Of a stretch of DNA of 64,000 bases, positions 5,877 to 44,372 are shown in pieces. Source of the DNA: Bacteroidales bacterium (GTDB lineage Bacteria > Bacteroidota > Bacteroidia > Bacteroidales > Salinivirgaceae); contig JAAYQU010000001.1 of NCBI GenBank assembly GCA_012519055.1, positions 62,001-126,000 on the forward strand, in the 5' to 3' direction. The translations under genes were made by a program, and so were the position numbers. Every line of letters begins with the position of its first letter. The stretch's first letter is position 1. Below the pieces are notes generated by a model that did not search any database, had not been told where the DNA came from, and saw only the letters and a list, made by a program, of their open reading frames with translations.

Positions 5877-6084
5877 TCAATTATCAATGTGCAATTAGCA
5901 ATGAACAATTATTTAGTTAAAAGTTTGTAAAGCGGTGTACTCGATCTCTGAACCTGTCGAAGTGGGCGAAGCCGAAGTGTTAAAAGCAATTGACTGTTAG
6001 CTATTTTTAAACGAACAATTATTAATGGGCTAATAGTTTACTAATTAGCCCATTAACAATTGTTCATTGTTAATTGTTAATTGT
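5877..6084. repeat. Repeat-rich spacer between the ATP-grasp-like gene and the giant surface protein
   Basis: The spacer holds three kinds of repetitive sequence. Iterated TTAATTG/GTTCATTG-type units lie at 5881-5915 and 6055-6090. The stretch 5942-5977, read on the minus strand, gives CACTTCGACAGGTTCAGAGA, which resembles a short repeat I recall from intergenic regions of other Bacteroidota. An 18-nt string at 5915-5932 recurs at 30105-30122. No coding potential was seen. Confidence 0.5.
6013..6065 (-). terminator. Large hairpin downstream of the giant surface-protein gene
   Basis: A 22-nt arm at 6013-6034 pairs with 6044-6065 with a single mismatch, around a 9-nt loop; the core is TAATGGGCTAAT/ATTAGCCCATTA. 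It starts about 20 nt after the stop codon of the minus-strand gene. Position and strength suggest a transcript end, although the run of U after it is weak. Confidence 0.5.
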
Positions 6085-12000: not shown

Positions 12001-15000
12001 GACTACGGCATTGCGGTTTGTACCTTTGTCAACAATTATCCAATAAAAGAAATATTGACCAGTACCATCTATAACCGTATTTTGTACGCCTTTGAATATT
12101 GCCTCCATGCTGCCACCCGTCGCATTGTTTAACCCTAACGTACCATCGTTTATAATGTCACCATATATATGCAACCTGTTATCTGCAGACGTTGCCGAAA
12201 CTGTAAAACGAGCTCTGTTTGTAGTTAGCATCAAATCACCATAAACGATAATATCTTTCTGCGTATTATTTACAACAAAAGTCGGATTGTCTATAATAAA
12301 ATCTCCTTTTACTACCAACTCCATTTTATTAGTACCCGAGATATTTATACTACTATTGCCATAACTATTGCCTGTACACAATATATTTTCTAATATTGTC
12401 AATTTTTCGAGCGATGGTAGCTGAATATTATGATTTGTACCAATTCTTAATACCAAATTTCTATATTGGTTTAATTTCAATCTTGCAGCATCATCTGACT
12501 CTATTGGTATAACTATATCTGCATTATTTGTATAATACTCTACAGTTCCGCCATTGGGTCCAAGAAAATCGCCGAAATCACCGGCAGGGAAATAGTTTGA
12601 GCTTGATATTTTAAGTGTTCCCGCTCCATCGATTTTCTCTTCAGGGATTGACGAGAAATCGTGTCCTGTTGTATTTGTTATATCCAAGGTGGTGCCTGCA
12701 AGTAACCTTAGTCCTCCTGCACGCTTGCCATTACTATTTATTTGGACGGTATGACCCTCGCCAATAATTACGAGAGTAGTTTCGTTTGGTATCTGTGAAG
12801 CTGGAACTCCGTCGTGACCTGTTTCAGACCACGTACTTGTGCTATCCCAATCCCCGTTTTCACGACTGTACAGAACAGGTATAGAACCAAAAGCTTCAAT
12901 ATAACCTGCAGTATGATCACCATTTGCTGTTGGTTGATTGGCAAAAGTAATTGTATTAGTTGCGGTGTTTATTGCTGTAGGGTCGTTCAAATAAATCCAT
13001 GAGTCGCCGTGTCTATATACTGCTGCAACATAGTTTGCCTCTATTCCTGAAATAAAATAGTCATTGTATGTAAATCTTAATCTAAAAGCATTACTGCTAA
13101 CACCTTCAAAACCCGTAGTTGTATTTTTCCAATACGTACTTAATGATAGATTTTGTGCTAACGGATGGTGTTCCTTAACAGGTCTCGAAGTAACCGTCCC
13201 TTCTACGGCTCCACTATACTCTATTGTGGAAGGCATATAATAATATGTAGAGTTGTCACTAACATAAAAACCATAAGGCAATAGTATTATTTCCGAACCT
13301 GAACCACTAAATAGTTTGGTTATTCCTCTATCTGATCCAAAGCCATTGGTTAAAATCATTTTATTATTATTAAATATCGCCCCAGTACCTAATGCAGAGT
13401 AAACTGCTGCATTTTCACCAAGGATAAGTCTGTTTGAACCCAAATTAACTCTTATGTTACTAACCAAACTAAATGCACCGTTAATTTGAATGTCTGATGA
13501 TACTGTGAGTTCTCCACCTGTTTTATTTACCGCTAAATTATTAAACTTACCATTACCGTCGCCGGAAATATCTTGGTTTCCTGTGCCATTTAAAACAATT
13601 CTTCCAGCAGCACCTGAAGGTCTAATATGGGTTCCGCTGTTGATAATGTTACCTGCAACATTTACAATCTTGGTATTATCACGTAGTGCCGACTCGGTTC
13701 CAATCTCAAAGTCATTTCTTACGTTAAATATGCTTGCTGTTCCTGCTAAATTTAACTCCGAGCCATTAATTATTGACATCTTATATAATCCGCTTGTTAT
13801 TGTGCCCGAGTTTGAAAATGTTTGCACTCCCGAACCATTAAAAATGGTGTTATTTGTTAAAGGAGTATATGTAGTTCCACTATTAATGATAAAGTCCTTT
13901 CCAACAATAACATCAACACTACTTTCGCCCGAATTTAAAACAGCTTGATTTTCAAGTGTTAAATTATTCAACACAACAAGAGGTTGAGCACTCATTGCAG
14001 GAATATAAGTTGTAGAATTCCCCGGATATCCTTTTGGCTGAGCAGAAAAGGTACTTGATGATGATATAATATTCAAATCCCAAAATGGCATAGTTGAATT
14101 TATATAAGAATTACTACTACCTGTTACATGTATATTTACTGTACCACCAGTAATATTTACATTATTAGGATCTGCTCCAATCAACACACTAAAGTATCGA
14201 CCACCATAATTTGGCCAATATCCATAACCAGTTGGGTTAGGTGCAAGAATATTTATAGTACCTCCGGAAATATTAATTGCATTGGTCGCATAAGGCATTG
14301 TAAAAGTACCATAAACACTCATGCCATCTAAGTTAGGCAACCCAGAACCTCTTAAATTTACTACTCCTCCTGACATAGTAAAAGAACCCCTATGTGTTCC
14401 TGGTTGATACGATGTTCTAATAATTTCTGTACTTAAATTACCCCCTTCAATAAAGATCTGCCCAGTTATACGAACAACAAAACCCTGCTTGCTATTGTCT
14501 AAAAAATTTGAATTCCCCGTTTGCTTGTAGCCACCATATAACAAAAATGTAGAGCCATCACCAGTAGTACTATTTGAAAAGTCTACTGTTGCACCATCTA
14601 ACCAAAGCATTGCATCTTCATCAATATAATAAACTAAGTTAGTACCACAAAGCGAAGGTATAACTATATTATTACCCAATCTCAGTGTTCCTACAAGTAT
14701 ATCTAATGCCTTACGGTTTGTTATATTTGGGGGATAACCTGTTGCATCTAGATTATTTCTACCAAATAGTTTAAAATTACTTGTACTCGAGGCATCAATA
14801 TTTAGTATATAAGTTTGGTCTATTCCCTTATTTACCACAATTCTATAAAATTCGGTTACGCCATTACACTTTACATACTGGTCTTTTGTTGCATTATCAA
14901 AATATACATCAACATGCCTATTGTTAGAACCAGTATAATCAGGTTGTGACAATAGTGAAAATTTCACTTGACCATAATTTACAAAATCGCCACTAATAAT

Positions 15001-17301
15001 AAAATCATGCACCCCAGTAACATTTCCCACCTCTATTTTCCCTGAAGTTTCTACAGTAACATTTTCTTTTACAGACAGCGTTCTATTTCCTGAAGCACTA
15101 ATCTGAAATGTTCCTTGTTTAATTGTAAAATTACCATTAATTGTCATATTGTCATTAATGGTAGCCGTACTTAAATTTGGGAGGTTTATTATTAGGTTAT
15201 TATAAACTTTTCTATCAAAGGTGAAGTTACTTGAATTGTAATACTCCACAGTGCCTCCTCCTGCTGCTACAAAACTATCAAAATCGCCAGTTGGGAAGGT
15301 CGTTGAAGCCAACTTTATAGTTCCTTGTCCAACAACTACATTAAAGTTATGTCCTGTAGTAGTTCCTATATCCAACTCTCCTCCCTCGTTAAGCTGCAAT
15401 GAGTAAGCCACTTTACTATCTTCATTAATAGTTACGGTACGACCATTTAGTATTACTACCCTATCATAAGTACTAGGAACACCTCCACCTTCCCACACTG
15501 AACCTGAAGGGTCGGTTGTCCATGTTGTACTGTTTTTCCAATCACCCGACTGATAAGAGTAGTACGTTGTAATAGGCTCTCGTAGTGTCCACTGAACATC
15601 AATATTTATTACGTTTGATACTGTGAAAAAATCATTATATATGTCAACAAACCCATTACTAACAGCAGTCCAAGTTACTCCATTTAAAAACATGGGTTTG
15701 TATTTATCTTCATCTCCTAAAACATCGTTTGAGTTATAGAAAAATTTTATATTAGCTGAGATGTTTGACAAATTATTTGAACTTGTAGTCCAGTGTCTAT
15801 TAAGATCATTGGGATTTGTAAAAGAACCTCGCTCATTCAATGTTCTAGCATAAAAGCTACCCGTACCATTTACAGTTGCACTCAACGAAGTTACTTCCAA
15901 TGGAGTATAAGCATTACCTGCACCTATAGGATATTCCATTACAAAATCTGATGACTGTACACCCTCCTTTACAAGGCTTCCTGTACCATTGCATACAATC
16001 ATTTGGCTACTACTGAAAGCTCCTGCAGCAGAGATTGCTGCATCTTTACCCAAAATAATATCTGCTCCAGAACCTGTTGCTAAACAAGCACCGTTTAAAA
16101 CTAGACTTTCATCAACTCTAATATTCCCACCAGTATTTTTAGTGCCGCCGCCTTGTATGTGAAGGTTTTTATATGAATTTGGTACTGACGAAACAGTTTG
16201 TCCTCCAATACCTTGATAAACTACAGTAGTACCTGGACTGAAAATTATATTATAGGACGTAAAATTATATGGAAATGGAACTGTGCTTGTAGTTGAGCTC
16301 AAAGTTAGAGTTGAAGTATTGTTCATTTCTAACCTACCAGTGCTGTTTCCAGTTATAGGATATCCAGTTGTAAGATTTGATGTGCCGTTTATAGTAAGAT
16401 TCCAAACACCAATATTACCCTCTAATGTTTTAATACCGCTAGTAGAGGATATGAGGTTATAATAGTCTGTTACATAAATGCTTTGATCCCCTGCTCTTTT
16501 GTACTCAACTGTAGAGTTTAGTGTATTTAAAACAATTGTACTTGTACCTATAGTCGACAAATCGAATGAATTTATACCCTTAAGAATTAAATGAGGGGAG
16601 CCAGTGCCAAGTAAAAATTTCGATTCGTTATAAGAGTGCACATTAATTGTTTTAATACTTCCATCAACTACAATTTTGCCTCTGTCATGTTCAAAAACAC
16701 CATTTCTTATTCTTTCTCTACCATATATTCTAACGCGGTAACTGTTAATTTCAATATCATTAGATACATTTATGGAATCAATAGAAGATTTTAGAGTACA
16801 CACATATGTAGGATCAAATAAACCGGCATCGAAATTTGCACTACCATTTCCAAGAACTATCGAACCGCAATTTATTGTTCCTTGTCCAGTTATGTTTGCA
16901 TTAATATTGTTTCTAGTAGTAGTATAATTCAGAGTAATCGCACCTGACACGTCTAATGTTTTGCCATTATTAACTGCTAAATTCCAATAATAACTACTAG
17001 TTGTTGTTGTAAAAGTAATACTCATACACGAGGCGTTATCATTTACCTCAATAGTATGTCCTCCCCTTATCTCAACGTAGTCGTTGGCCCCCGGAACACC
17101 ATTCGGTGTCCATGTATTAGGATTATGCCAATCACTCAAGGTGGCAGATGCTGATCTATAAGTAGTCTGCCCAAAAACACTTAAATTGCCCAAAAACATA
17201 AACAGCAATAAAGTGGTTTTAATCAAGTAGGACAAACTGTTATTAAAAAATGTTGGTTTAGTACTACAACGTTTTTGTCTTGTGGATAGATATGTATTCA
17301 T
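6085..17301 (-). CDS. Giant T9SS-exported surface protein with repeated beta-rich domains (3738 residues)
   Basis: The N-terminus has a long n-region, a hydrophobic segment (about residues 28-44) and a likely signal cleavage after VFGQ. The rest is Asn/Thr/Ser/Gly-rich and looks like stacked beta-solenoid and Ig-like domains. A module beginning W-x-TW or similar and followed by a GHTV-like strand occurs at about residues 57, 587, 1485, 2378 and 3257 (for example GDWDSTSTW, then GEGHTVQIN). Between roughly 2830 and 3010 are PKD-like segments. The C-terminus (about 3660-3738) is a type A sorting domain: VYPNPTTG, then LYNYNGAVL, then ASGLYMLKI. By family knowledge this should send the protein through the type IX system to the cell surface. 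An adhesin or matrix role is inference; no catalytic motif was recognised. No frame break occurs over 11 kb. Confidence 0.88.
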   Translation of the reverse strand: MNTYLSTRQKRCSTKPTFFNNSLSYLIKTTLLLFMFLGNLSVFGQTTYRSASATLSDWHNPNTWTPNGVPGANDYVEIRGGHTIEVNDNASCMSITFTTTTSSYYWNLAVNNGKTLDVSGAITLNYTTTRNNINANITGQGTINCGSIVLGNGSANFDAGLFDPTYVCTLKSSIDSINVSNDIEINSYRVRIYGRERIRNGVFEHDRGKIVVDGSIKTINVHSYNESKFLLGTGSPHLILKGINSFDLSTIGTSTIVLNTLNSTVEYKRAGDQSIYVTDYYNLISSTSGIKTLEGNIGVWNLTINGTSNLTTGYPITGNSTGRLEMNNTSTLTLSSTTSTVPFPYNFTSYNIIFSPGTTVVYQGIGGQTVSSVPNSYKNLHIQGGGTKNTGGNIRVDESLVLNGACLATGSGADIILGKDAAISAAGAFSSSQMIVCNGTGSLVKEGVQSSDFVMEYPIGAGNAYTPLEVTSLSATVNGTGSFYARTLNERGSFTNPNDLNRHWTTSSNNLSNISANIKFFYNSNDVLGDEDKYKPMFLNGVTWTAVSNGFVDIYNDFFTVSNVINIDVQWTLREPITTYYSYQSGDWKNSTTWTTDPSGSVWEGGGVPSTYDRVVILNGRTVTINEDSKVAYSLQLNEGGELDIGTTTGHNFNVVVGQGTIKLASTTFPTGDFDSFVAAGGGTVEYYNSSNFTFDRKVYNNLIINLPNLSTATINDNMTINGNFTIKQGTFQISASGNRTLSVKENVTVETSGKIEVGNVTGVHDFIISGDFVNYGQVKFSLLSQPDYTGSNNRHVDVYFDNATKDQYVKCNGVTEFYRIVVNKGIDQTYILNIDASSTSNFKLFGRNNLDATGYPPNITNRKALDILVGTLRLGNNIVIPSLCGTNLVYYIDEDAMLWLDGATVDFSNSTTGDGSTFLLYGGYKQTGNSNFLDNSKQGFVVRITGQIFIEGGNLSTEIIRTSYQPGTHRGSFTMSGGVVNLRGSGLPNLDGMSVYGTFTMPYATNAINISGGTINILAPNPTGYGYWPNYGGRYFSVLIGADPNNVNITGGTVNIHVTGSSNSYINSTMPFWDLNIISSSSTFSAQPKGYPGNSTTYIPAMSAQPLVVLNNLTLENQAVLNSGESSVDVIVGKDFIINSGTTYTPLTNNTIFNGSGVQTFSNSGTITSGLYKMSIINGSELNLAGTASIFNVRNDFEIGTESALRDNTKIVNVAGNIINSGTHIRPSGAAGRIVLNGTGNQDISGDGNGKFNNLAVNKTGGELTVSSDIQINGAFSLVSNIRVNLGSNRLILGENAAVYSALGTGAIFNNNKMILTNGFGSDRGITKLFSGSGSEIILLPYGFYVSDNSTYYYMPSTIEYSGAVEGTVTSRPVKEHHPLAQNLSLSTYWKNTTTGFEGVSSNAFRLRFTYNDYFISGIEANYVAAVYRHGDSWIYLNDPTAINTATNTITFANQPTANGDHTAGYIEAFGSIPVLYSRENGDWDSTSTWSETGHDGVPASQIPNETTLVIIGEGHTVQINSNGKRAGGLRLLAGTTLDITNTTGHDFSSIPEEKIDGAGTLKISSSNYFPAGDFGDFLGPNGGTVEYYTNNADIVIPIESDDAARLKLNQYRNLVLRIGTNHNIQLPSLEKLTILENILCTGNSYGNSSINISGTNKMELVVKGDFIIDNPTFVVNNTQKDIIVYGDLMLTTNRARFTVSATSADNRLHIYGDIINDGTLGLNNATGGSMEAIFKGVQNTVIDGTGQYFFYWIIVDKGTNRNAVVTLLAPITVAQANPLLELKNGTFRVNRAEADLVITYRNTDFTIPHTAALSVVDGNVRIATSTVSGSGKLCLAGRLEVLGGKMFIGNSMYNTNHSIEYVAAGNPEIIVEDGELHVNGQIRRLTAVTTGNLHYRQSGGTTTIYGKSRIATRGLFEIDNLGSFEMSGGTLQFDRPSVAGTTFGDVVLKPDSLSVTGGMIKFGLPTSIANYNFKMIASSPVWDLTVGNEIIPQLLTTNVYAITVKGELLINEASQFIANGLNVTLKGNIVNKNTSASTNLTEGGYQPGTNTQTTIFSGNIQNITGTENNLTNFANLVIEPTSSVSLLENTTVRVNNTLEIRSGTLIDGGNFVYAAGDIVNTSIHVSSQSSGGINLVGMKNQKLRGYGATYGNIIIDNSHGISLLDNTTINGRLILENGLLYIDDYLLTLGVNATVEGAFDNSKMIMLNGVLSDLGVRKMFSSVTSSQFTIPIGTGGKYTPATYTVTTGTPGAITVRPVNREHPALYDVAGNELQYYWSVNATGFGTDLQLTHKYQYIEEDVLGTIDQYVVGLYHYDTYLWNNLGNDGHPGKVNAVEKTIEVLNVNYATGDFTAGYPANFISLPTYYSRNNRLNDNWIEQDNWSTVGHDDDTHLASVPPHGNPIVIAAGHTMVISVNQQMQASVEVNGVLNCGKTVFHNLGNVYGTGKIVIESTDEGYFVFPAGEYEEFFNTMGTEVELTGSITATMPLKPGNYSKPFNNLILSGLGQKNMSADDLRVRGRLEIKNGTKLNSSNHNRSIYISGDWINENTTENSFIAGTGTVFIEGTETQNMTVSAKEKFNNLTMQNSAGLVITNNPIEIMKTLRLTKGVIHSAENREVILSNTSISQAVVGVKNTSFVDGPVKKRILSGQSFNFPTGNDGRLGVIRLTRATSSQQYWTAQYFNTDPSPTYPTEITNLAIPLTAVSDNEYWRVIGPDVNSEANIYLRYDGVSFPEYTYSSSGRNLLRVVENEADMWTPIGDRVSGTATSGNVYTFVPQSVTQVGHTYSIGAIGVTAIIDDTTSWSICDNETDYVMVPVKLTGNPPYRLTYKTVGEYTREFTENNIETSQFVITLNGLSMGGYSATPYVLKLVSVSGDGGATAGFVRPDSVKITVKLTHKPIISGAAIVALGEERTYTTPLHDGSVYLWEWVGASGGTITPTANEAKINFNSTTGVYVLKVTETSSSGCFAYDEITINVQNMPAPYINPHDETNICQGEIRTYTTNYNPSNEYFWTVVGGVCQGCDSWVSDKAQIIVTWDSPTNAGYVKVEEQIKNTTTKSEDILNIQVSKQPTQRTLLGDEVCQNLAGQITVINSESGVNYQLVNNSSGINVGPYLSGNGGNLQLNTDPLLATENFYVRAYNLGCELRMPPNPGTVDVTVQNPDVLLAIDDTDHILCQGTQANFTASDAAALANSFNFIINGLSVQSSESTSYATTSLQHNDEIYVVGTTNKGCRDTSSVIAVSVGNNIWSGEVSTAWESLGNWACGYLPSLAIDAFIPVRAARMPIVSTSSSVKTIEVETGASLTHNNGIFSIAGDIINRGTFTSSNATIRLTGGNEQKLIDNTGFNFSNLTVEKQGESVILETKVNISGALTLTSGIVKTDDTNILTLANTASTTPGNANSYVDGPMQKIGNTDFTFPVGAGDRWARIGISDIVAAKSTITMKAQYHIGKYSEPDNVSVPLNNASEVEHWYLQNTTNDAECNVTLHTENVSLSNINTSNLPDLRVAYFDGTWTDKGNGGTSFDTNTGSIKSGVSTTRPNNYFTFGSLTGDNPLPVELINFKAYLYNGQTLLTWITATEHNNSHFEIERSDNMKDFTKIGTVYSKAQNGSSTQAIDYAYTDDAPKAGTNYYRLKQVDFNGLYSYSKVVSVTSDRENDPLESIMVYPNPTTGSANIIIPGGGENIHISLYNYNGAVLLEYEYNPLDPTIDLSQYASGLYMLKISKNDKHVVQRVIKQ

Positions 17302-19452: not shown

Positions 19453-22400
19453 ATGTACAGAGGAAATAAAAGGTGTTGTCTTAAAGCACTTAAAACAAAC
19501 CACTTAAATAAAAGAAAACAGATGGATTACCCATTAAAAAACGTTAATCTTTCTTTTGTGGTGCTACCCTGCACCAAAAGTAAACCCCAAATTGCAAACC
19601 TTTTTGCAATTTTTTTATCTGTTCTATTGTTGGGCTTTAGTGCACTGCAGGTACAAGCCCAGAATCTTACTGTAAAAATTACCAAAACCGACAGTACTAG
19701 TAGCACAGTAACTGGTGCGGCCTCCTTGCAGGGAGCCATTGGCATCACGCCATTGGGAGAAGTGGCAAAGCTTGAAATCTCGGCCGGCGATTTTGTCACA
19801 ACTGACTGGAACTGGCTCAGGGCTAATCGTACCGCTCTTAAAGCCCTCACGCACTTTACCATAACCGACAGCATTAATAGCGTAGCAGATATTCCCGATA
19901 CCGAATATGGAAATCCCTATTTCAGTAGGAAAATTAATGAACTGAGCATGGCTAAAATTGCGAGGGTTGGGATGCATACATTCATGGGCTGCAACGCTCT
20001 CACTACAATCAGTTTCCCGAATCTGACTAGTATTGGCGGCTTTGCGTTCCGTGGTTGCACCGCTCTTAGCACTGCTAACTTCCCGCTGGTAACGAGCATT
20101 GGAGGACGAGCGTTCATATACTGCACAGCCCTTAGTAGTGTTAATTTCCCGTTAGCAATGAGCATCGGATTTGAAGCGTTTTCTGGTTGCACCTCCCTTA
20201 GTGCCACTAAATTTCCGCAGGTTACAAGCATTGATAGCTATGCATTCCTTGACTGCGTCACACTTAACAACCTGATGCTGGGCGCAACACCGCCGGTAGT
20301 CTATGAGACAAATGCCTTTGAGAATTGCCCTGACAACCGCTTCCTTATCCCTATAAATGCAAGTGGCACGCCACTCACCGGCCAGGACCTCACCAACGCA
20401 TTGGCATCATACAAAAATATAGACGATGGAAATACCAACGATAGCCTCTGGTACGGCTGGATTATCGAACCACCACACCCCATTGTAATCAATCCCTCCA
20501 GCTACGGCACTGTAAGCAGCATATACCCCTGTGCCCCTGCTGGTATCACAGTAGCACTTATCGTCACCCCCGATGCGGGCTACATACTGCAGAGCCTCAG
20601 ATACACAAAGCATAGCGGAGGCGGGGCAATAACCATTGATACAAGTAGCTGCACCTTTACCATGCCCAACGACGGTGTTACAGTAAGCGCCACCTTTGCA
20701 CCAAATCTGCTGGTTACAGTAAACGACTCAATCTACAAATCCGGCACCTCGCTGGAGAACGCTCTCAGCGGAATTGCATTGAACCAAATTACCTCGCTCA
20801 CCATTACGGGAGGACCATTCTATCTAAACAACTGGTATTGGCTACAAAATAACCGTAACAACCTTAATGCTCTGACGCACTTTACCATTACGGACGGTGT
20901 TGTCAGCATCGCAGATGTGCCAACTGTTGAGGGATGGGAGCACAGATCTATATTTGGCAAACAGATTATAAAGCTATGTGTGGCTAAAGTCACCGGTATT
21001 GGTGGCTATGCGTTTCAAGGCTGCTCCGCCCTCAACACCGCCTACTTCCCACAGGTAACAAGCATTGGTGGTAATGCATTCGAAAACTGTATTGCCCTTG
21101 CTAACGCCGGCTTCCCGTTGGCAACAAGCATTAGCGGCGGTGCATTTTTCGGCTGTACAACCCTTATCAACCTAATGCTTGGTGCAACACCACCGGAAAA
21201 CGTTGGAACAAATCCCTTTAATGGTTGCCCGGACACCCGCTACCTTATCCCCGTAAATGCAGACGGCACACCGCTCTCCGGTCAAGACCTCACCAACGCA
21301 TTGGCATCATACAAAAATGTGGATGATGGCAATACCGGCGATAGTCTCTGGTATGGCTGGAAATTGGGAGAAACGCTATTCCCGGTAGAGATAAATTACA
21401 TAGGAAGTGGCACGGTGACCGGCAGCTACCGCTATGCCCCCGCCGGTGCCACGGTTAAACTTTCCATTATCCCTGAAGCGGGCAACATGTTGCAAAGCAT
21501 TAGTTGCGTCAAATTTGGAGGGGACGAAGTGGATATTGATATGAGTAGCTACACCTTTTCCATGCCTGCAGAACGCGTTACTGTGAATGCCATCTTTGCG
21601 CCAAATGTGCTACATCTGACTGTAAACGACTCAATCATCAAATCCGGCACCTCACTAGAGAACGCCCTTGACGGAGTTGAACTCGGCGATATTACTTCAC
21701 TCACCATTATGGGAGGAGCATTCTTTGCAACTGACTGGAATTGGCTAAAGGATAATCGCACCGCTCTCGCTTCTCTTACATACTTTACCATTACAGACGG
21801 TGTTACCAGCGTGGCAGATATACCAAATACTCAGTGGGGAACTCCTTACTTCAGCAACCATCTTAAGGAACTGAGCGTGGCTAAAATCGCTAACATTGGT
21901 AACTATGCGTTCTCTGGTCGTCCCCTCACCACTGCCAATTTCCCTCAGGTAACAGGCATTGGCGACGGTGCGTTCCGCGATTGTGCCCTTCTCAGCACCA
22001 CTAACTTCCCGAAGGTCACGAGCATTGGTTGGGGTGGGTTCTACGACTGCACCGCCCTCACCACCATCAGCTTCCCGCAGGTAACAAGCATTGGAGAATA
22101 TGCGTTTACGCATTGCAACACCATCAAAACCGCCAGTTTCCCGCAGGTTACGAGTATTGGCAACAATGCGTTCTTTTCTTGCAGGCTCCTTGCCAACCTG
22201 ATGCTGGGTGCAACACCTCCGGTAAGCGTTGGAGCAGATGTTTTTGCGTACTGCCCGACGAATCGCTTCCTTATCCCTGTAGATGAAAGTGGCATACCAT
22301 TAACCGGCACAAACCTCACCGATGCATTGGCATCATACAAAAATATAGATGATGGTAATACCAACGACAGCCTTTGGTACGGCTGGATTATCGAACCCAC

Positions 22401-25400
22401 ACACCCCATTGCAATCAACCCCACCAACAACGGCACGGTGGATGCTCCTCAGTATGCCTCTGCCGGTGCCACGGTAACACTTATCGTCACCCCCGATGCG
22501 GGCTACATACTGCAGAACCTTATCTGCACTAAGCAGGGAGGAGAAGAGGTGGATATTGATATGAACAGCTACGCCTTTACCATGCCCAACGAGGGCGTTA
22601 CTATAAGCGCTACCTTTGTGCCAAACCTGTTGGTTACTGTAAACGGCTCAAACAATAAATCCGGTACTTCGCTGGAGAATGCCCTTAGCGAAGTTACATT
22701 GGGCGAAATCACCTCACTTACCATTACTGGAGGGCCATTTTTTGAATCCGACTGGAACTGGCTCAAGAATAAGCGCACTGAACTCAACAATCTCACACAC
22801 TTCACCATCACAAGCGATCCTGTCAGCGTAGCAGATATTCCCGATACATATAGCAATATCCCCTACTTCGGTGAGCAGATTATAGAGCTAAACGTGGCTA
22901 AAATTGCTAATATTGGTAATTTTGCGTTCAGTGGCTGCACCGCCCTTAGTACCGCTAGCTTCCCACAGGTAACAAGCATTAGTTGGAACGCATTCGAAAA
23001 CTGCACCGCCCTCACCGTCACCAACTTCCCGCAAGTAACGGACATCGGGACAAGTGCATTCTTTGGATGTACCGCCTTTAGCGCCGCCAACTTCTCGCAG
23101 ATAACAAGCATTGGCAACAGTGCGTTCGCTAACTGCACCGCACTTACCAACCTAATGTTGGGTGCAACACCACCAGTAAACGTTGGGACAAATGCCTTTA
23201 GTGGTTGCCCTGACACACGCTTCCTTATTCCCGTGAATACAGACGGCACACCACTTACCGGACAAGAGCTTACCAATGCACTATCGTCATACAAAAATAT
23301 AGACGATGGCGATACCAACGATAACCTCTGGTACGGTTGGAAGTTGGGAGAAACATTATACCCCATTACAATCAACCCAGCTAGCAACGGCACGGTGAAC
23401 AGCAGCTACCGCTATGCCCCCGCAGATGCCACGGTAACGCTTACCCCTATCCCAGATGCGGGCTACATACTGCAGAGCCTTATTTGTGTCAAACAGGGAG
23501 GGGGTGAGGTGACCATTGACATGAACAACCACAGCTTTACCATGCCCAACGATAGTGTTACCGTAAGCGCCACCTTCGTGCCAAACTTGTTGGTTACTGT
23601 AAATGGCTCAAACAATAAATCCGGCAACTCGCTGGAGAACGCCCTTGACGGAATTGCATTGGACCAAATCATCTCGCTCACCATTACTGGAGGGCCATTC
23701 ATGGCAAACGACTGGAACTGGCTAAAGGATAATCGAGACACCCTTACCGCCCTTACGCACTTCACTATTACCAACGACGCTATTAGCGTGGCAGATATAC
23801 CAAATGAGTGGGACCCCTACTTCGGCGAGCAGATTATAGAAGTGAGCGTGACTAAAGTCGTTAGCATTGGTAACTATGCATTCTATGGCTGCACCGCCCT
23901 CACCACCATCAGCTTCCCGCAGGTAACAAGCATAGGGTTGAACGTATTCCAAAACTGTACTGCCCTTAGCACCGCCAGTTTCCCACAGGCAACAACAATT
24001 AGAGCCGGTGCTTTCTATAATTGTACTTCCCTTGGCACCGCCAACTTCCCACAGGTTACAAGCATAGGTAATGTTGCGTTCGCTTTTTGTACCACCCTAA
24101 TCACCGCCAACTTCCCGCAGGTTACGAACATAGGTGAATATGCGTTCAAAGGCTGCACCATTCTTAGTACTGCCTGCTTCCCGCAGGTTACAAACATAGA
24201 AGGTGAAGCATTCCATGGCTGCATCGCCCTTAGCAATCTGATGCTGGGCGCAATACCGCCAAGCGTTGCAAACACAAATGTCTTTAGCGGTTGCCCTGAC
24301 ACCCGCTTCCTTATCCCCGTGAATGCAGACGGCACGCCGCTTACCGGGCAAGAACTTACCAACGCATTAGCATCATACAAAAACACAGACGATGGCGATA
24401 CCAACGATAACCTCTGGTACGGCTGGAAATTGGGAGAAGCACTATACCACATTACAATCAATCCCGCCAACAACGGCACGGTGAGCAGCAGCTATTCCTA
24501 CGCTCCCGCCGATGCCACGGTAACGCTCACTCCTACCCCCGATGTGGGCTACATACTGCAGAGCCTTACCTGCACTAAGCAGGGAGGAGGAGAGGTGCCC
24601 ATTGACATGAATAGCCACACCTTTACCATGCCCAACGATGGTGTTATCATAAACGCCACCTTTGTGCCAAACCTGTTGGTTACTGTAAATGGCTCAAACA
24701 ATAAATCCGGCACCTCGCTGGAGAACGCCCTTGACGGAGTTGCATTGGACCAAATCATCTCGCTCACCATTACTGGAGGACCATTTTTTGCAAGCGACTG
24801 GAACTGGCTAAAAAATAATCGCGACACCCTTACCGCCCTTATACACTTTACTATTACCGACGACGCCAGTAGTTTAGCTGATATTCCTGATACGTATAGC
24901 AATAGCCCCTACTTCGGCGAGCAGATTATAGAAGTGAACGTGGATAAAGTCGCTAGCATTGGTGACTATGCGTTCTCTGGTTGTACCACTCTTAGTATCG
25001 CCAGATTCCCGCAGGTTACGGGTATTGGTAATAATGCATTTCAAGGATGTGTCACCTTTAGCAATCTGATGCTGGGCGCAACACCACCAAGCGTTGCAGA
25101 CACAAATGTCTTTAGCGATTGCCCTGACACCCGCTTCCTTATCCCCGTGAATTCAGACGGCACACCGCTTACCGGGCAAGAACTCACCAACGCATTGGCA
25201 TCATACAAAAATATAAACGATGGCGATACCAACGATAACCTCTGGTACGGCTGGAAATTGGGAGAAACGTTATACACCATTACAATCAACCCCACCAATA
25301 ACGGCACGGTAAGTAGTAGCTATCGCTATGCCCCAGCTAATACTACGGTAACAATCACTATTAGTCCTAATATCGGTTACCGCCTTAAAGAGGGCAGTCT

Positions 25401-25992
25401 AAGGGCATACAAAACTGGTGAGGAGTCCACCACTGTTACCATCACCAATTGCGAGTTCACCATGCCCGCCTATGGTATAACAATAGAATGCGAGTTTGAA
25501 TTAATTCCAATAATAGAGCAATTTACCATTACCTTTGCTACTCCTGAAAATGGTACGCTTAGCGTAAAACAAGGAACAACAGAACTTTCAAGTGGTGCAC
25601 AAGTAGATAAAGATAGCGAAATCACTATTACTGCCACGCCTAACACAGGCTACAAAATTGATACCCTAACTGTTAACGGTGCTGCGTTTGAAAGTGGTGG
25701 AACCCACATAGTTATTGCAGATGTTGAGATTGTAGCAGTGTTTACGGAAGGTACAAGTATAAACACAAATGTGGTAACCACTTTTATACTTTATCCAAAC
25801 CCAACCAATGGCAAGGTAAACATAGAGGGCTTGCAACAACCAGCTAATATAACTGTTTACAATATCGCTGGCGTTGCTATGCACACCCAACAACTAAACC
25901 CTGCAGAAACATTAGATTTAGGTCATCTACCAGGTGGAGTATACATGATTCACGTGAACAACACAACAACACTGCGTGTTGTTAAACAATAA
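19453..25992 (+). CDS. BspA-type leucine-rich-repeat surface protein with T9SS sorting domain (2179 residues)
   Basis: After a signal peptide (hydrophobic FAIFLSVLLLGFSAL, cleavage after VQAQ near residue 70) come six tandem modules starting near 19663, 20708, 21610, 22630, 23588 and 24675. Each module has a SLENAL/LTITGG start with a W-rich strand, a run of 23-residue BspA-like repeats (consensus GCTALxTxxFPQVTSIGxxAF), a PDTRFLIPVN block, and a divergent InlB B-repeat-like domain (NPxNNGTV...YAPAxATVTLTP...FTMPNDGVTV). Repeat number differs between modules. The end has one more B-repeat-like domain and a sorting domain (LYPNPTNGKVNIEG...LPGGVYMIHV). BspA relatives bind host proteins or other bacteria, but the ligand here is unknown. 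The first 23 codons may be leader, since ATG at 19522 (MDYPLKNVN) would also give a good signal peptide. The gene is visibly richer in G+C than its neighbours. Confidence 0.9.
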   Translation: MYRGNKRCCLKALKTNHLNKRKQMDYPLKNVNLSFVVLPCTKSKPQIANLFAIFLSVLLLGFSALQVQAQNLTVKITKTDSTSSTVTGAASLQGAIGITPLGEVAKLEISAGDFVTTDWNWLRANRTALKALTHFTITDSINSVADIPDTEYGNPYFSRKINELSMAKIARVGMHTFMGCNALTTISFPNLTSIGGFAFRGCTALSTANFPLVTSIGGRAFIYCTALSSVNFPLAMSIGFEAFSGCTSLSATKFPQVTSIDSYAFLDCVTLNNLMLGATPPVVYETNAFENCPDNRFLIPINASGTPLTGQDLTNALASYKNIDDGNTNDSLWYGWIIEPPHPIVINPSSYGTVSSIYPCAPAGITVALIVTPDAGYILQSLRYTKHSGGGAITIDTSSCTFTMPNDGVTVSATFAPNLLVTVNDSIYKSGTSLENALSGIALNQITSLTITGGPFYLNNWYWLQNNRNNLNALTHFTITDGVVSIADVPTVEGWEHRSIFGKQIIKLCVAKVTGIGGYAFQGCSALNTAYFPQVTSIGGNAFENCIALANAGFPLATSISGGAFFGCTTLINLMLGATPPENVGTNPFNGCPDTRYLIPVNADGTPLSGQDLTNALASYKNVDDGNTGDSLWYGWKLGETLFPVEINYIGSGTVTGSYRYAPAGATVKLSIIPEAGNMLQSISCVKFGGDEVDIDMSSYTFSMPAERVTVNAIFAPNVLHLTVNDSIIKSGTSLENALDGVELGDITSLTIMGGAFFATDWNWLKDNRTALASLTYFTITDGVTSVADIPNTQWGTPYFSNHLKELSVAKIANIGNYAFSGRPLTTANFPQVTGIGDGAFRDCALLSTTNFPKVTSIGWGGFYDCTALTTISFPQVTSIGEYAFTHCNTIKTASFPQVTSIGNNAFFSCRLLANLMLGATPPVSVGADVFAYCPTNRFLIPVDESGIPLTGTNLTDALASYKNIDDGNTNDSLWYGWIIEPTHPIAINPTNNGTVDAPQYASAGATVTLIVTPDAGYILQNLICTKQGGEEVDIDMNSYAFTMPNEGVTISATFVPNLLVTVNGSNNKSGTSLENALSEVTLGEITSLTITGGPFFESDWNWLKNKRTELNNLTHFTITSDPVSVADIPDTYSNIPYFGEQIIELNVAKIANIGNFAFSGCTALSTASFPQVTSISWNAFENCTALTVTNFPQVTDIGTSAFFGCTAFSAANFSQITSIGNSAFANCTALTNLMLGATPPVNVGTNAFSGCPDTRFLIPVNTDGTPLTGQELTNALSSYKNIDDGDTNDNLWYGWKLGETLYPITINPASNGTVNSSYRYAPADATVTLTPIPDAGYILQSLICVKQGGGEVTIDMNNHSFTMPNDSVTVSATFVPNLLVTVNGSNNKSGNSLENALDGIALDQIISLTITGGPFMANDWNWLKDNRDTLTALTHFTITNDAISVADIPNEWDPYFGEQIIEVSVTKVVSIGNYAFYGCTALTTISFPQVTSIGLNVFQNCTALSTASFPQATTIRAGAFYNCTSLGTANFPQVTSIGNVAFAFCTTLITANFPQVTNIGEYAFKGCTILSTACFPQVTNIEGEAFHGCIALSNLMLGAIPPSVANTNVFSGCPDTRFLIPVNADGTPLTGQELTNALASYKNTDDGDTNDNLWYGWKLGEALYHITINPANNGTVSSSYSYAPADATVTLTPTPDVGYILQSLTCTKQGGGEVPIDMNSHTFTMPNDGVIINATFVPNLLVTVNGSNNKSGTSLENALDGVALDQIISLTITGGPFFASDWNWLKNNRDTLTALIHFTITDDASSLADIPDTYSNSPYFGEQIIEVNVDKVASIGDYAFSGCTTLSIARFPQVTGIGNNAFQGCVTFSNLMLGATPPSVADTNVFSDCPDTRFLIPVNSDGTPLTGQELTNALASYKNINDGDTNDNLWYGWKLGETLYTITINPTNNGTVSSSYRYAPANTTVTITISPNIGYRLKEGSLRAYKTGEESTTVTITNCEFTMPAYGITIECEFELIPIIEQFTITFATPENGTLSVKQGTTELSSGAQVDKDSEITITATPNTGYKIDTLTVNGAAFESGGTHIVIADVEIVAVFTEGTSINTNVVTTFILYPNPTNGKVNIEGLQQPANITVYNIAGVAMHTQQLNPAETLDLGHLPGGVYMIHVNNTTTLRVVKQ
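19663..25345 (+). repeat. Six tandem intragenic modules of about 0.9-1.1 kb
   Basis: Near-identical DNA marks module boundaries, for example TTGGTTACTGTAAA followed by GGCTCAAACAATAAATCCGG at about 22630, 23590 and 24675. The modules differ mainly in how many 69-bp leucine-rich units they contain. The DNA-level identity is highest among the last three modules. Confidence 0.85.
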
Positions 25993-35359: not shown

Positions 35360-36760
35360 ATGCAACAACAAAACCACGACGATCTTGTAAAACGAATTGC
35401 ACGTTTGATGGACGAAAACAAGGAGCTGTCGCGCCAAATAAAAACACTTCAGGATTCATTTGACAAAATTCAAAACGAAAACGACAAGCTTAAATTAAAA
35501 GTTACTCGTTTACAAGATAAAGTAGCTGTAGAAAGTGGCGAAAGCGAAGAAGATCAGATTCTTCGCTTTAAAATGGCTACTGTACTTTTTGCTGATATTC
35601 AGGGATTTGAAAATATTAATACAGAATCAAATTCACACCATATCATTGATGAGCTTGATAATATGTTTTTTCGGTTCGACGAAATATCTAAAAAACACAA
35701 CATTGCTCGCATTAAAACTATCGGTGACACATACATGAGTGCAGGTGGCATTCCAATAAAAAACATTACAAACCCAATTGATGTTGTGCTTGCAGCATTA
35801 GAAATGCGACATATGTTATACACAACACAGCACGACAGGAGTGATGAAAACAGACAGATTTGGGATCTTAGTATCGGGATGCACACAGGACCTGTGATTG
35901 CAACAACAATGGGAAAGAAAAAGGTCTCATATAATATAAAAGGAGAAACGGTAAATATTGCCAGTCGAATGCAGGCTGCATGCAAAACCGGAAATATCAA
36001 CATCTCTATTATGACATACGAAATGATACGTGAATATTTCGAATGCGAATATGTAGGTCGAATGCCAGTAAAATATGAAGGAGATGTTGAAATGTATATG
36101 GTTAAGGGCTTAAAACCTGAATTTGCAGCTGACGACTCTAAAACTATCCCAAACCAAAAATTTATTGTCAAATATCTTTTAAGACAATTTAGTGATTTAC
36201 AAGAAATTATATTAGACAAGTTGGAAAAAGAACTTCCTTCGTATTTATATTATCATAATTACAAACACACTATTGATGTTGTATCACAAACTGAATTAAT
36301 AGGTATTGGCGAAGGTGTTAACGACACAGAAATGTTACTGCTAAAAACTGCAGCACTGTTCCACGATACCGGACATATAGTCAATAGCGATAACCATGAA
36401 CATTTGGGAACCTTGTTGGTACGTGAAATGTTGCCAAATTACAATTACAACGATGAACAAATTGAGGAAATTTGCAAACTAATAATGGCGACAAAAATGC
36501 CACCAAATCCACAAACTTTACTTGAAAAAATAATGTGCGACGCCGACCTTGATTACTTGGGAAGAGCAGATTTTATTCCTGTTTCAAATACTCTTTTTGA
36601 AGAATTAAAAGCGCAAAATAAAATAACGGAACTTAACGAATGGAACAAAATGCAAGTTAAATTTATTTCAGGACACCAATATTTTACTGATACGGCTAAC
36701 AAACTGCGAGAAGTAAATAAGCAAAAACAGATAGACCGAATAAAAAGTCTAATAGTTTAA
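35360..36760 (+). CDS. Class III nucleotide cyclase fused to an HD (PDE-like) phosphohydrolase domain
   Basis: The 466-residue protein is soluble. Residues 1-58 form a charged coiled coil. Residues about 70-250 are a class III cyclase domain: metal-binding D79 (LFADIQGF) and D123 (KTIGDTYM), base-contact K119, and transition-state residues N199 and R203 in VNIASRM. The second base-contact residue is N192 (YNIKG), where adenylate cyclases usually have Asp or Thr and guanylate cyclases Cys. Residues about 265-460 are an HD domain with YHNYKHTIDV (H299, H303), FHDTGH (H335, D336), NHEH near 345 and CDADLD near 394. This pattern resembles 3',5'-cyclic nucleotide phosphodiesterases. The protein may therefore make and degrade a cyclic nucleotide, or hydrolyse something else. 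The preceding methyltransferase is 35 bp upstream. Confidence 0.85.
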   Translation: MQQQNHDDLVKRIARLMDENKELSRQIKTLQDSFDKIQNENDKLKLKVTRLQDKVAVESGESEEDQILRFKMATVLFADIQGFENINTESNSHHIIDELDNMFFRFDEISKKHNIARIKTIGDTYMSAGGIPIKNITNPIDVVLAALEMRHMLYTTQHDRSDENRQIWDLSIGMHTGPVIATTMGKKKVSYNIKGETVNIASRMQAACKTGNINISIMTYEMIREYFECEYVGRMPVKYEGDVEMYMVKGLKPEFAADDSKTIPNQKFIVKYLLRQFSDLQEIILDKLEKELPSYLYYHNYKHTIDVVSQTELIGIGEGVNDTEMLLLKTAALFHDTGHIVNSDNHEHLGTLLVREMLPNYNYNDEQIEEICKLIMATKMPPNPQTLLEKIMCDADLDYLGRADFIPVSNTLFEELKAQNKITELNEWNKMQVKFISGHQYFTDTANKLREVNKQKQIDRIKSLIV

Positions 36761-42494: not shown

Positions 42495-44372
42495 TTACTT
42501 TTTACTTTTCATTTTACGTGGTTTAATCATATTTTCGGGTGCTAAAGCGTTATCAAGTTCTTCTTTTGATAAAACTTTATTTTCGAGGACTAACTCATAA
42601 ACCGAACGATTTTCTTTTAGTGCTTGTTGTGCAAGCTTAGTTGAAGCTTTATAACCTATTAATGGGTTCAATGCTGTTACTAAACCTATTGAATTATGAA
42701 CCATATTGCGGCAATGTTCCACATTAGCTGTGATTCCATCGATACATCGGAAACGCAGTGTGTCCATTCCGTTTTTAAGCATTTCAATATTTTCAAGCGT
42801 ACTTTGTACTATAAGCGGTTCCATTACGTTAAGCTCAAGTTGTCCAGCTTCAGATGCAATTGTAACTGCCATATCATTACCTATTACTTTAAATGCAATT
42901 TGGTTAACTACTTCTGGTATCACCGGATTAACCTTTCCAGGCATAATTGATGAGCCTGGTTGCATAGGCGGTAAATTAATTTCACCTATACCTGTACGAG
43001 GTCCACTAGAAAGCAGTCTTAGGTCGTTACAAATTTTCGACAGTTTAACTGCAAGACGTTTAATGGTTGAAGAATACATTACAAAATCGCTTGTGTCTTG
43101 TGTCGCTTCAATTAAGTTTTTTGCAAGTTTTAGATCGAATCCTGTGATCTCTCTCAAGTGTTCTAAAACTATTCCGCTGTACTCAGGATCAGCATTAATG
43201 CCTGTACCAATAGCTGTGGCTCCCATATTTATTTCGGTAAACAGCAAAACATTACTTTCAAGTCGCTCAACTTCTTCTTCTAATGTACTTGCATATGCCT
43301 CAAAAGTTTGTCCCAAAGTCATCGGAACTGCATCTTGAAGCTGTGTCCTTCCCATTTTAATAACATCCTTAAACTCAACTGATTTACGTTGAAACGAATC
43401 AATTAAGTTTTTCAAAACCTCAACAAATTTGATATTGCTGTATAACAATGCAAGCTTAACTGCTGTAGGATACGCGTCGTTAGTACTTTGGCTTAAATTC
43501 ACATGATCGTTTGGACTGCAATGTGTATAATCGCCTTTCTCATATCCCATAAGCTCAAGTGCCCTGTTGGCAATAACTTCGTTGGCATTCATATTTGTAG
43601 ATGTACCTGCCCCTCCCTGTATCATATCAACCACAAAGTGTCCATGATATTTTCCTTTAATTATCTCATCACATGCACCACAAATAGCATCAGTAACCTC
43701 TTTTGACATTAACCCAAGATCATGGTTTGCAAGTGCTGCAGCCATTTTAACGATAGCCAACGATTGAACTAATGCCGGATAAAACCTGAGTGTTACACCG
43801 CTGATATCAAAATTTTCTATTGCACGCATAGTTTGTATGCCATAATACGCATGTTCGGGAACTTCGCGATCTCCCAACAAGTCTGTTTCAGTTCTTGTAC
43901 GACCGGGCAAGTATTGTGCTCCGTCATCAATCAATTGCGCGTTAGCATTATACATCCGTCGCTGAATCACTGATGAAAGATTTCTAAGAACAGTGATAAT
44001 AATATCAGGGTTCCCACTGCAAGACTCGCGAAAATCATCACTGTTAATTTTTAGCACTGTTAAATCCGAAGCAGCTCTGGCATTTGTGCTATGCGGAGTT
44101 TTTTCTATTAACGAACCTTCACCCATGAAGTCATACTTCCCAAAATGTGTTATTCGTCTTTCATCGCCCCGAGGTGTTTTTTTGTACAATTCAACTTCGC
44201 CGGAATAGATTACAAAAATTGCTTCTCGGGTTGCATTTTGCTTGTATAAATGCTCTCCTTCACTGTAATTACACGTTTTAACAATATTACTAAATATTGC
44301 CATTTCCTTGTCGGATAAACCTTTGAACAGTTGTGTCTTTTTTAGAAAATCTCGAATTTGAATTTCAGTCAT
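42495..44372 (-). CDS. aspA: Aspartate ammonia-lyase with an N-terminal cyclic-nucleotide-binding domain
   Basis: The 625-residue protein joins two complete domains. Residues about 1-145 are a CAP_ED/cNMP-binding beta roll: LFKGLSDKEM near residue 15, YSEGEHLYKQ, FVIYSGEVELY near 53, and the phosphate cassette FMGEGSLIEKTPHSTNARA at 82-100. The cassette glutamate (E85) is present, but the usual arginine is histidine (H94). Residues about 158-625 are a full aspartase: TETDLLGDREVPEHAYYG, TSTNMNANEVIANRALE, and the signature GSSIMPGKVNPVIPEVVNQ near 472. Aspartase converts L-aspartate to fumarate and ammonia. No stop or frameshift lies between the domains. Fusion implies that a ligand, perhaps a cyclic nucleotide, controls the enzyme. 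A class III cyclase is encoded 6 kb away. The fusion itself is seen; ligand binding is inferred. Confidence 0.92.
   Translation of the reverse strand: MTEIQIRDFLKKTQLFKGLSDKEMAIFSNIVKTCNYSEGEHLYKQNATREAIFVIYSGEVELYKKTPRGDERRITHFGKYDFMGEGSLIEKTPHSTNARAASDLTVLKINSDDFRESCSGNPDIIITVLRNLSSVIQRRMYNANAQLIDDGAQYLPGRTRTETDLLGDREVPEHAYYGIQTMRAIENFDISGVTLRFYPALVQSLAIVKMAAALANHDLGLMSKEVTDAICGACDEIIKGKYHGHFVVDMIQGGAGTSTNMNANEVIANRALELMGYEKGDYTHCSPNDHVNLSQSTNDAYPTAVKLALLYSNIKFVEVLKNLIDSFQRKSVEFKDVIKMGRTQLQDAVPMTLGQTFEAYASTLEEEVERLESNVLLFTEINMGATAIGTGINADPEYSGIVLEHLREITGFDLKLAKNLIEATQDTSDFVMYSSTIKRLAVKLSKICNDLRLLSSGPRTGIGEINLPPMQPGSSIMPGKVNPVIPEVVNQIAFKVIGNDMAVTIASEAGQLELNVMEPLIVQSTLENIEMLKNGMDTLRFRCIDGITANVEHCRNMVHNSIGLVTALNPLIGYKASTKLAQQALKENRSVYELVLENKVLSKEELDNALAPENMIKPRKMKSKK

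Follow-up and report, generated by a model that had tools for sequence, protein, structure and literature searches.

A cyclic-nucleotide-binding-type sensor domain with an exchanged phosphate-site residue pair is fused to aspartate ammonia-lyase in Bacteroidales and other bacteria

Aspartate ammonia-lyase (aspartase) converts aspartate to fumarate and ammonia and stands at the point in metabolism where the release of nitrogen and the supply of fumarate branch. The enzyme forms tetramers in which active sites are shared. In canonical cyclic-nucleotide-binding (CNB) domains, a glutamate at the position of Glu200 of protein kinase A (PKA) holds the ribose by its 2'-OH, an arginine holds the phosphate, and movement of the C-helix, which serves as the lid, closes the domain. 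Several CNB-fold proteins function without nucleotide. The protein described here combines these two families. The solved unfused aspartases (PDB 6wng and 1jsw) align end to end with its residues 158-619 (E-values 1.5e-196 and 2.1e-161, respectively), but their chains start only a few residues before the point matching residues 158-160 and are without a CNB domain. The CNB domains (PF00027) of Crp-type regulators, channels and PKA/PKG share with it the fold (Z-scores 17-19), the glutamate of the phosphate-binding cassette and the C-helix. It differs from them in having His for Arg209 and Arg for Gly169 (PKA numbering), in its lyase output and in that no DNA-binding domain was found. CNB domains are also known on CBS, HisK (kinase) and AAA (ATPase) modules (Kannan et al. 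2007, PMC2246266) and on the shells of family 2b encapsulins (eLife 2021, PMC8049743). These proteins, together with PycTIR (PDB 8jsk, cUMP), resemble the fused aspartase in joining a CNB domain to a module that does not bind DNA, but none is a lyase in those parts of the sources that describe them, and the word 'lyase' is absent from the text of Kannan et al. 2007 (PMC2246266). No description of an aspartase-CNB fusion was found in the open-access literature searched. Regulation of an enzyme by a CNB domain is thus a known principle; the aspartase fusion and the exchanged residue pair are what appears to be new.

The window analysed here is a stretch of 64,000 nucleotides from a Bacteroidales bacterium of the family Salinivirgaceae ([GenBank:JAAYQU010000001.1]). 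The fused gene (42495..44372, minus strand) is an uninterrupted frame of 625 amino acids, with its ATG at 44372 and its stop codon at 42497-42495, whereas the same coordinates read on the plus strand contain stops throughout. An earlier note on this DNA had described a single 625-residue frame joining a CNB domain to an aspartase, leaving the strand unstated, and both the frame and the domain matches confirm it. The CNB domain covers residues 1-145 (43938..44372, minus), as delimited by Pfam and AlphaFold2, with a beta roll followed by a C-helix from residue 122. Residues 1-145, on which the earlier identification depended, do match a CNB domain: Pfam cNMP_binding (PF00027) covers the core at residues 35-118 (E-value 1.2e-18, 67.2 bits versus a cut-off of 27.5). 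A linker (residues 146-157, 43902..43937, minus) leads to the aspartate ammonia-lyase (residues 158-625, 42498..43901, minus). In a Pfam scan at E 0.1, only CNB and lyase domains were detected and there was no C-terminal HTH DNA-binding domain.

The lyase half is, on all the evidence of its sequence, an intact aspartate ammonia-lyase for which deamination is predicted. Besides the alignment to solved aspartases, it matches Pfam Lyase_1 at residues 168-498 (E-value 3.3e-96) and FumaraseC_C at residues 564-617 (E-value 1.3e-21), and it passes the NCBIfam aspA equivalog TIGR00839 with 704.5 bits (cut-off 681.2). The fumC_II score is below its cut-off (475.6 bits versus the required 664.75), so the fused enzyme is not called a fumarase. 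Four of six distant fusions also pass the TIGR00839 cut-off, and the other two, L034 (669.4) and L021 (668.5), fall just under it. Throughout 36 aligned fusions, the columns of the lyase motifs GSxIMPGKVNP, QSTND, GRTQLQDA and GAGTS are invariant or nearly so. The catalytic loop GSSIMPGKVNP (residues 473-483, 42924..42956, minus) contains Ser474, Lys480 and Asn482, all invariant in the 36 fusions, whose roles we take to be those of their counterparts in Bacillus aspartase; the second Ser of the loop lies outside the invariant or near-invariant columns. L023 was left out of this alignment, its frame being broken at query residue 564.

An AlphaFold2 model of residues 1-150, built on an alignment of 20 CNB sequences, has a mean pLDDT of 93.4, with the usual helix in the cassette (residues 85-88) and a long C-helix spanning residues 122-148. 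Among the 50 structural matches listed by VIA-align 2, the model resembles CRP-type, channel-type and PKA/PKG-type CNB structures with Z-scores of about 17-19. The best are Thermus CAP (18.9) and the PycTIR CNB domain with cUMP (18.7), followed by GlxR in the apo form (18.7) and with cAMP (18.6), an M. loti CNB mutant (18.6) and Geobacter 3mdp (18.5); matches within 1 Z are to be regarded as tied. The matches thus take in CNB domains with bound cAMP and with bound cUMP. In the full-length monomer model (pLDDT 82.3, pTM 0.69) the linker is poorly modelled. Residues 144-151 have pLDDT below 50, suggesting that in the monomer the sensor sits on a short, apparently flexible linker.

The ligand pocket departs from the canonical pattern at a few well-defined positions. 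The phosphate-binding cassette (residues 84-96, GEGSLIEKTPHST, 44085..44123, minus), recognised by alignment and conservation, includes Glu85 (44118..44120, minus), the equivalent of PKA Glu200, which is Glu in 85/85 distinct fused domains. The place of the canonical phosphate-binding arginine, PKA Arg209 and presumably CRP Arg82, is taken by His94 (44091..44093, minus), which is His in 84 of the 85 and Tyr in one. Arg49 (44226..44228, minus), in the beta2-beta3 loop, stands at the position of Gly169 of PKA RI-alpha and is Arg in 84/85. The C-helix carries Arg138-Arg139 (43956..43961, minus), with Arg139 present in all 85. The four residues R49/E85/H94/R139 occur together in 83 of the 85 domains, the exceptions being L011 (Ser49) and L179 (Tyr94). 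These correspondences were read from an alignment of a PKA RI-alpha fragment, its sequence checked against PDB 1rgs, to the profile of the fused domains. It pairs Arg49 with Gly169, Gly58 with Gly178, Glu85 with Glu200 and His94 with Arg209, and is gap-free within 49-58 and 85-94. Kannan et al. 2007 (PMC2246266) single out Gly178 as the best conserved glycine in CNB domains. They also report that Gly169, in the beta2-beta3 loop, packs against Arg209, that the two are co-conserved, and that Gly169 may couple cAMP binding to the output. By alignment, this Arg209/Gly169 pair is exchanged in the fused aspartases: the arginine is gone from the cassette, where His stands, and an arginine is present in the loop. 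Compared with canonical cAMP/cGMP-binding CNB domains, therefore, the cassette Glu is kept but neither Arg209 nor Gly169 is; the His at the Arg209 position that characterises CooA is found in His94. The earlier note had spoken of a CAP-type cyclic-nucleotide-binding domain. This holds for the fold and for the PF00027 match, but is not established in the functional sense, given the replacement of Arg209 by His in 84/85 domains and of Gly169 by Arg.

The CNB domain changes rapidly among the fusions, with a mean pairwise identity of 36% versus 68% for the lyase. Its only invariant residues in 36 fusions, drawn from Bacteroidales and the other groups listed below, are Gly58, Glu85, His94 and Arg139. 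Nevertheless, the cassette columns have a mean conservation of 0.62 versus 0.34 elsewhere in the domain (one-sided Mann-Whitney p 6e-4, from 28 non-redundant of the 36 rows, the choice of cassette columns having been made after inspection of the alignment). A well-kept cassette in a fast-changing domain is what would be expected of a working ligand site, and not of a relic. Judged from these alignments, the pocket is under selection, yet non-canonical. The 85 domains come from loci gathered before L290-L293, which were read separately and also have the motif. L001 and L002, being copies of L082 and L083, were removed before counting, and the residue table is without L182_9 and L191_3 (empty cassette columns; contig-cut fused copy).

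The fusion is not confined to the window. It was found in 51 of 247 genomes of the same order (counting the genome of the window itself and one copy cut by a contig end), while 28 of the 247 carry an unfused aspartase and none of the 79 with an aspartase-grade match has both forms. Here an unfused aspartase means a lyase-only match with an E-value up to 2.1e-189, the next match being at 1.5e-163. Among 345 genomes of the phylum there are, besides the own genome, 15 with the fusion, all outside the class of the window, and 32 with the unfused form only. One of this set, G541, has one fused and one unfused copy. A rule that the two forms never coexist holds in the order set, but is broken by G541. 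Up to five candidates per genome were scored in the order set and up to three in the phylum set, so some copies may have been missed in these counts. In a contig scan, 27 of the best 80 of 301 relatives carry the fusion in full or almost in full, judged by the range of the query that is matched. Most of the 27 have record titles of Bacteroidales or Bacteroidetes, and the other titles are Ignavibacteria, Acidobacteria/Acidobacteriota, Aminicenantes, Deltaproteobacteria, Desulfobacteraceae and Desulfobulbaceae. The nearest named relatives among the same best 80 are a Salinivirgaceae MAG (73%) and a Bacteroidales MAG (74%). In the Desulfobulbaceae fusion L055, the open frame continues about 245 residues upstream of the chosen start at 5986, giving 864 in all. 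The idea of a sensor domain on a metabolic enzyme, put forward in the earlier note for this one genome, is therefore right and applies far more widely, as the fusion recurs in the order, in other classes and under other record titles. An assembly chimera or a frameshift artefact was considered and is excluded, since this domain arrangement is found with 85 distinct CNB sequences; the fusion is also present in the one-contig genomes G003, G373, G381, G484 and G541. We take the fusion to be real and widespread and its sensor, going by the residues, to be a dedicated one in which the phosphate-site pair is exchanged, rather than just a CAP domain placed on an enzyme.

To compare the fused sensor with other CNB domains, a profile of 20 fused CNB domains was run against 149 genomes of the order. 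It gave 32 matches at 129.8-194.5 bits, and all 32 matches above 129 bits sit in frames of 619-683 amino acids at the places of the fusions. The next best match, at 77.6 bits, leads into other CNB frames, many of them Crp-sized and some of 400-500 amino acids. Because all 32 strong matches are on fusions and a score gap separates them from 77.6 bits, the fused CNB domain constitutes a subfamily of its own. This subtype was not seen on any other protein in the 149 genomes, and it looks like a CNB type dedicated to aspartase. Arg at position 49 is found in none of 57 other CNB rows (one of which is without cassette columns); the single additional row that has it, L191_3, is the contig-cut copy of a fusion. 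Eight of these rows have the canonical Glu..Arg cassette, six (frames of 409-442 amino acids) have Glu..His without Arg49, and the majority of the remainder have neither the cassette Glu nor the Arg. Of the Crp/Fnr-sized CNB proteins examined (L101, L103, L205, L206 and others), most have Tyr or Leu in place of the Glu and no arginine at the Arg209 position. Crp-sized frames that are without both residues probably do not read cAMP in the usual manner.

The six CNB frames of 409-442 amino acids share the Glu..His cassette with the fused aspartase, but have Ala or Ser at position 49. A SpoIIE domain was confirmed in L104, the one checked. This protein (640-1857 of L104, minus strand, on contig C21 of the own genome) is a CNB domain with a SpoIIE-type phosphatase, 406 amino acids long, with His in the cassette. 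It differs from the fused aspartase in its phosphatase output, and other frames of its size keep Glu..Arg. The L104 protein may be a second receptor for the signal read by the fused aspartase. In three genomes of the window's family (G003, G004 and G005; loci L139, L190 and L191), a CNB protein of 402-417 amino acids is encoded some 6 kb away from the fused aspartase. It has a canonical Glu..Arg cassette, and its resemblance to CNB-SpoIIE proteins is judged solely from its length and cassette.

A tree of 121 lyase-family domains places 75 fused rows together with the unfused L041 on a single branch (SH-aLRT 97). In G005 the gene is split by contig ends, and its lyase half (L093) was labelled as fused by hand. 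The fusions L028, L034, L038 and L055 fall outside the main fused branch, and all four keep R49/E85/H94/R139. At least 5 changes between the fused and unfused states are seen on the tree, 2 of which are forced by well-supported branches. A single clade for all fusions receives p 0.037 in the AU test, on a tree that contains long branches. This leaves two readings: an ancient fusion with several later losses, or more than one joining of this sensor subtype to aspartase.

A candidate source of the signal is encoded in the window itself. A frame of 466 amino acids (35360..36760, plus strand), about 6 kb from the fused gene, combines by Pfam a class III nucleotide cyclase with an HD domain, with PF00211 at residues 69-249 and PF01966 at residues 301-396. 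Pairs of cyclase-like and phosphohydrolase domains are mentioned in the literature (PMC4886424), and the window protein is possibly a maker and breaker of a cyclic nucleotide in one. The own genome has three PF00211 matches. In the order, PF00211 is matched in 46/51 genomes with the fusion, in 4/28 with the unfused form and in 91/168 with neither. Outside the order the figures are 12/15 fused versus 10/32 unfused (counted by hand). It is also matched in 8/9 fused genomes to which records led that were either unassigned or from groups other than Bacteroidales; one of the nine (G596) is G358 of the phylum set again, as indicated by the equal match places of the two. The difference between fused and unfused genomes of the order gives a Fisher p of 1.5e-11. 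On the aspartase tree, however, the fused/unfused split provides one independent pair for this contrast, so the p value is not counted as evidence of function. Among fused genomes, PF00211 has no match at E 1e-8 in G056, G097, G105, G163, G198, G445, G534 and G561 and none at E 1e-3 in G592. The pocket motif is intact in all nine of these genomes, so a class III product cannot be a requirement.

The cyclase was also considered as a conserved neighbour and rejected, as blastp with the window cyclase against the stretches of DNA around the fusions matches only L153, L155, L166 and the own locus L192. L143 has a match to the HD part only, and in G015 and G085 a PF00211 match lies about 10-14 kb from the fusion on the same contig. 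Nor was any other conserved operon partner found in frames of at least 100 amino acids within 5 kb of 63 loci (54 from genomes of the order or near kin and 9 others). The widest clusters of separate genes, in the top 15 clusters, cover 11 and 9 of the 63 loci; the two widest of all consist of antisense frames of the fused gene itself. A class III cyclase product is a candidate signal, no more.

We lean slightly towards the view that a small ligand, bound by the CNB domain of the aspartate ammonia-lyase itself, controls this enzyme directly and allosterically, a view supported by the selective conservation of the pocket. The ligand would contain a ribose, which Glu85 would bind, and a negative charge, for which Arg49 together with His94 would provide the hold. 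Its likeliest class would be a cyclic or linear purine nucleotide, of which the class III cyclases may be a source. Such a ribose-bearing anion would sit between Glu85, Arg49/His94 and Arg139. Binding would shift the C-helix bearing the invariant Arg139, residues 144-157 would relay this movement to the lyase tetramer, and aspartate deamination would be switched on or off without transcription. That this amounts to a new class of CNB ligand is a more tentative proposal, plausible but short of probable: a charge-relocated pocket, so far seen only on aspartase, through which a nucleotide-type or other small-molecule signal would directly gate amino-acid deamination in several phyla, as a metabolic counterpart of PKA-type allostery. 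Relative to PKA, such a pocket has Arg209 changed to His and Gly169 to Arg, keeps the Glu and adds an Arg on the C-helix.

The domain could instead sense something other than a nucleotide phosphate, such as heme and a gas (as in CooA), an aromatic acid (CprK), a nucleoside (trypanosomatid PKA) or a metabolite of the aspartate pathway, which we think unlikely but deserving of serious attention. The near invariance of His94 would fit, as a His at the Arg209 position holds the heme in CooA and an Asn there binds the ligand of CprK (PMC2246266). The trypanosomatid PKA has likewise lost the Arg, with polar residues in its place and nucleosides instead of cAMP, but this switch also involves a Glu at the position of PKA Ala202 (PMC10959531). 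The corresponding residue 87 of the fused domains is never an acid in 37 rows (34 have Ser, Ala, Thr or Gly, and the remaining three have Cys, Leu and Val). Furthermore, the ribose-binding Glu is invariant and the additional conserved Arg49 suggests that an anion is still bound. cAMP or cGMP is also a possible ligand, and the presence of a class III cyclase in most fused genomes of the order, and of one so close in the window, would suit an ordinary cAMP/cGMP receptor domain in which His94 simply replaces the Arg and these cyclases make the signal. We nevertheless regard this as improbable, because Arg209 and Gly169 are both replaced. In PKA, changing Arg209 to Lys lowers the affinity nearly ten-fold (PMC2246266), and the absence of this Arg from the fused domains speaks against a normal affinity for cAMP. 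The motif is also kept in fused genomes without a PF00211 match, and the cyclase association is phylogenetically non-independent and is not reflected in gene neighbourhood. Finally, the CNB domain might bind no ligand at all and serve in assembly, stability or partner binding, for which the short and flexible linker of the model and the existence of CNB-fold proteins that need no nucleotide could be cited. This seems very improbable, as the pocket is the most conserved part of a fast-changing domain and a scaffold would not be expected to keep a pocket.

If direct ligand control is correct, the built-in sensor would provide post-translational control of aspartase by a second messenger. It would do so in bacteria whose Crp-sized CNB proteins, where examined, are mostly without the cAMP signature in the cassette. 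The family also represents a natural experiment on CNB allostery, with the coupling pair Arg209-Gly169 proposed in 2007 exchanged family-wide, so both the ligand and the coupling could be tested in one soluble enzyme by a simple absorbance assay. As to the metabolic setting, the earlier note had suggested a role in fumarate respiration. In the own genome the succinate-dehydrogenase/fumarate-reductase flavoprotein family PF02910 is matched twice, with the stronger match in a 640-aa frame, and the idea may be regarded as compatible with such a flavoprotein; a DcuA/DcuB transporter had no match in the own genome.

Two very large genes elsewhere in the window encode proteins with Por sorting tails. 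The first (6085-17301, minus strand) encodes a secreted-type protein of 3738 residues with this tail at the C-terminus and otherwise only a sub-threshold Pfam match to G8. The second (19453-25992, plus strand) encodes a protein of 2179 residues that has both BspA-type leucine-rich repeats and Flg_new_2 repeats in addition to its Por sorting tail.
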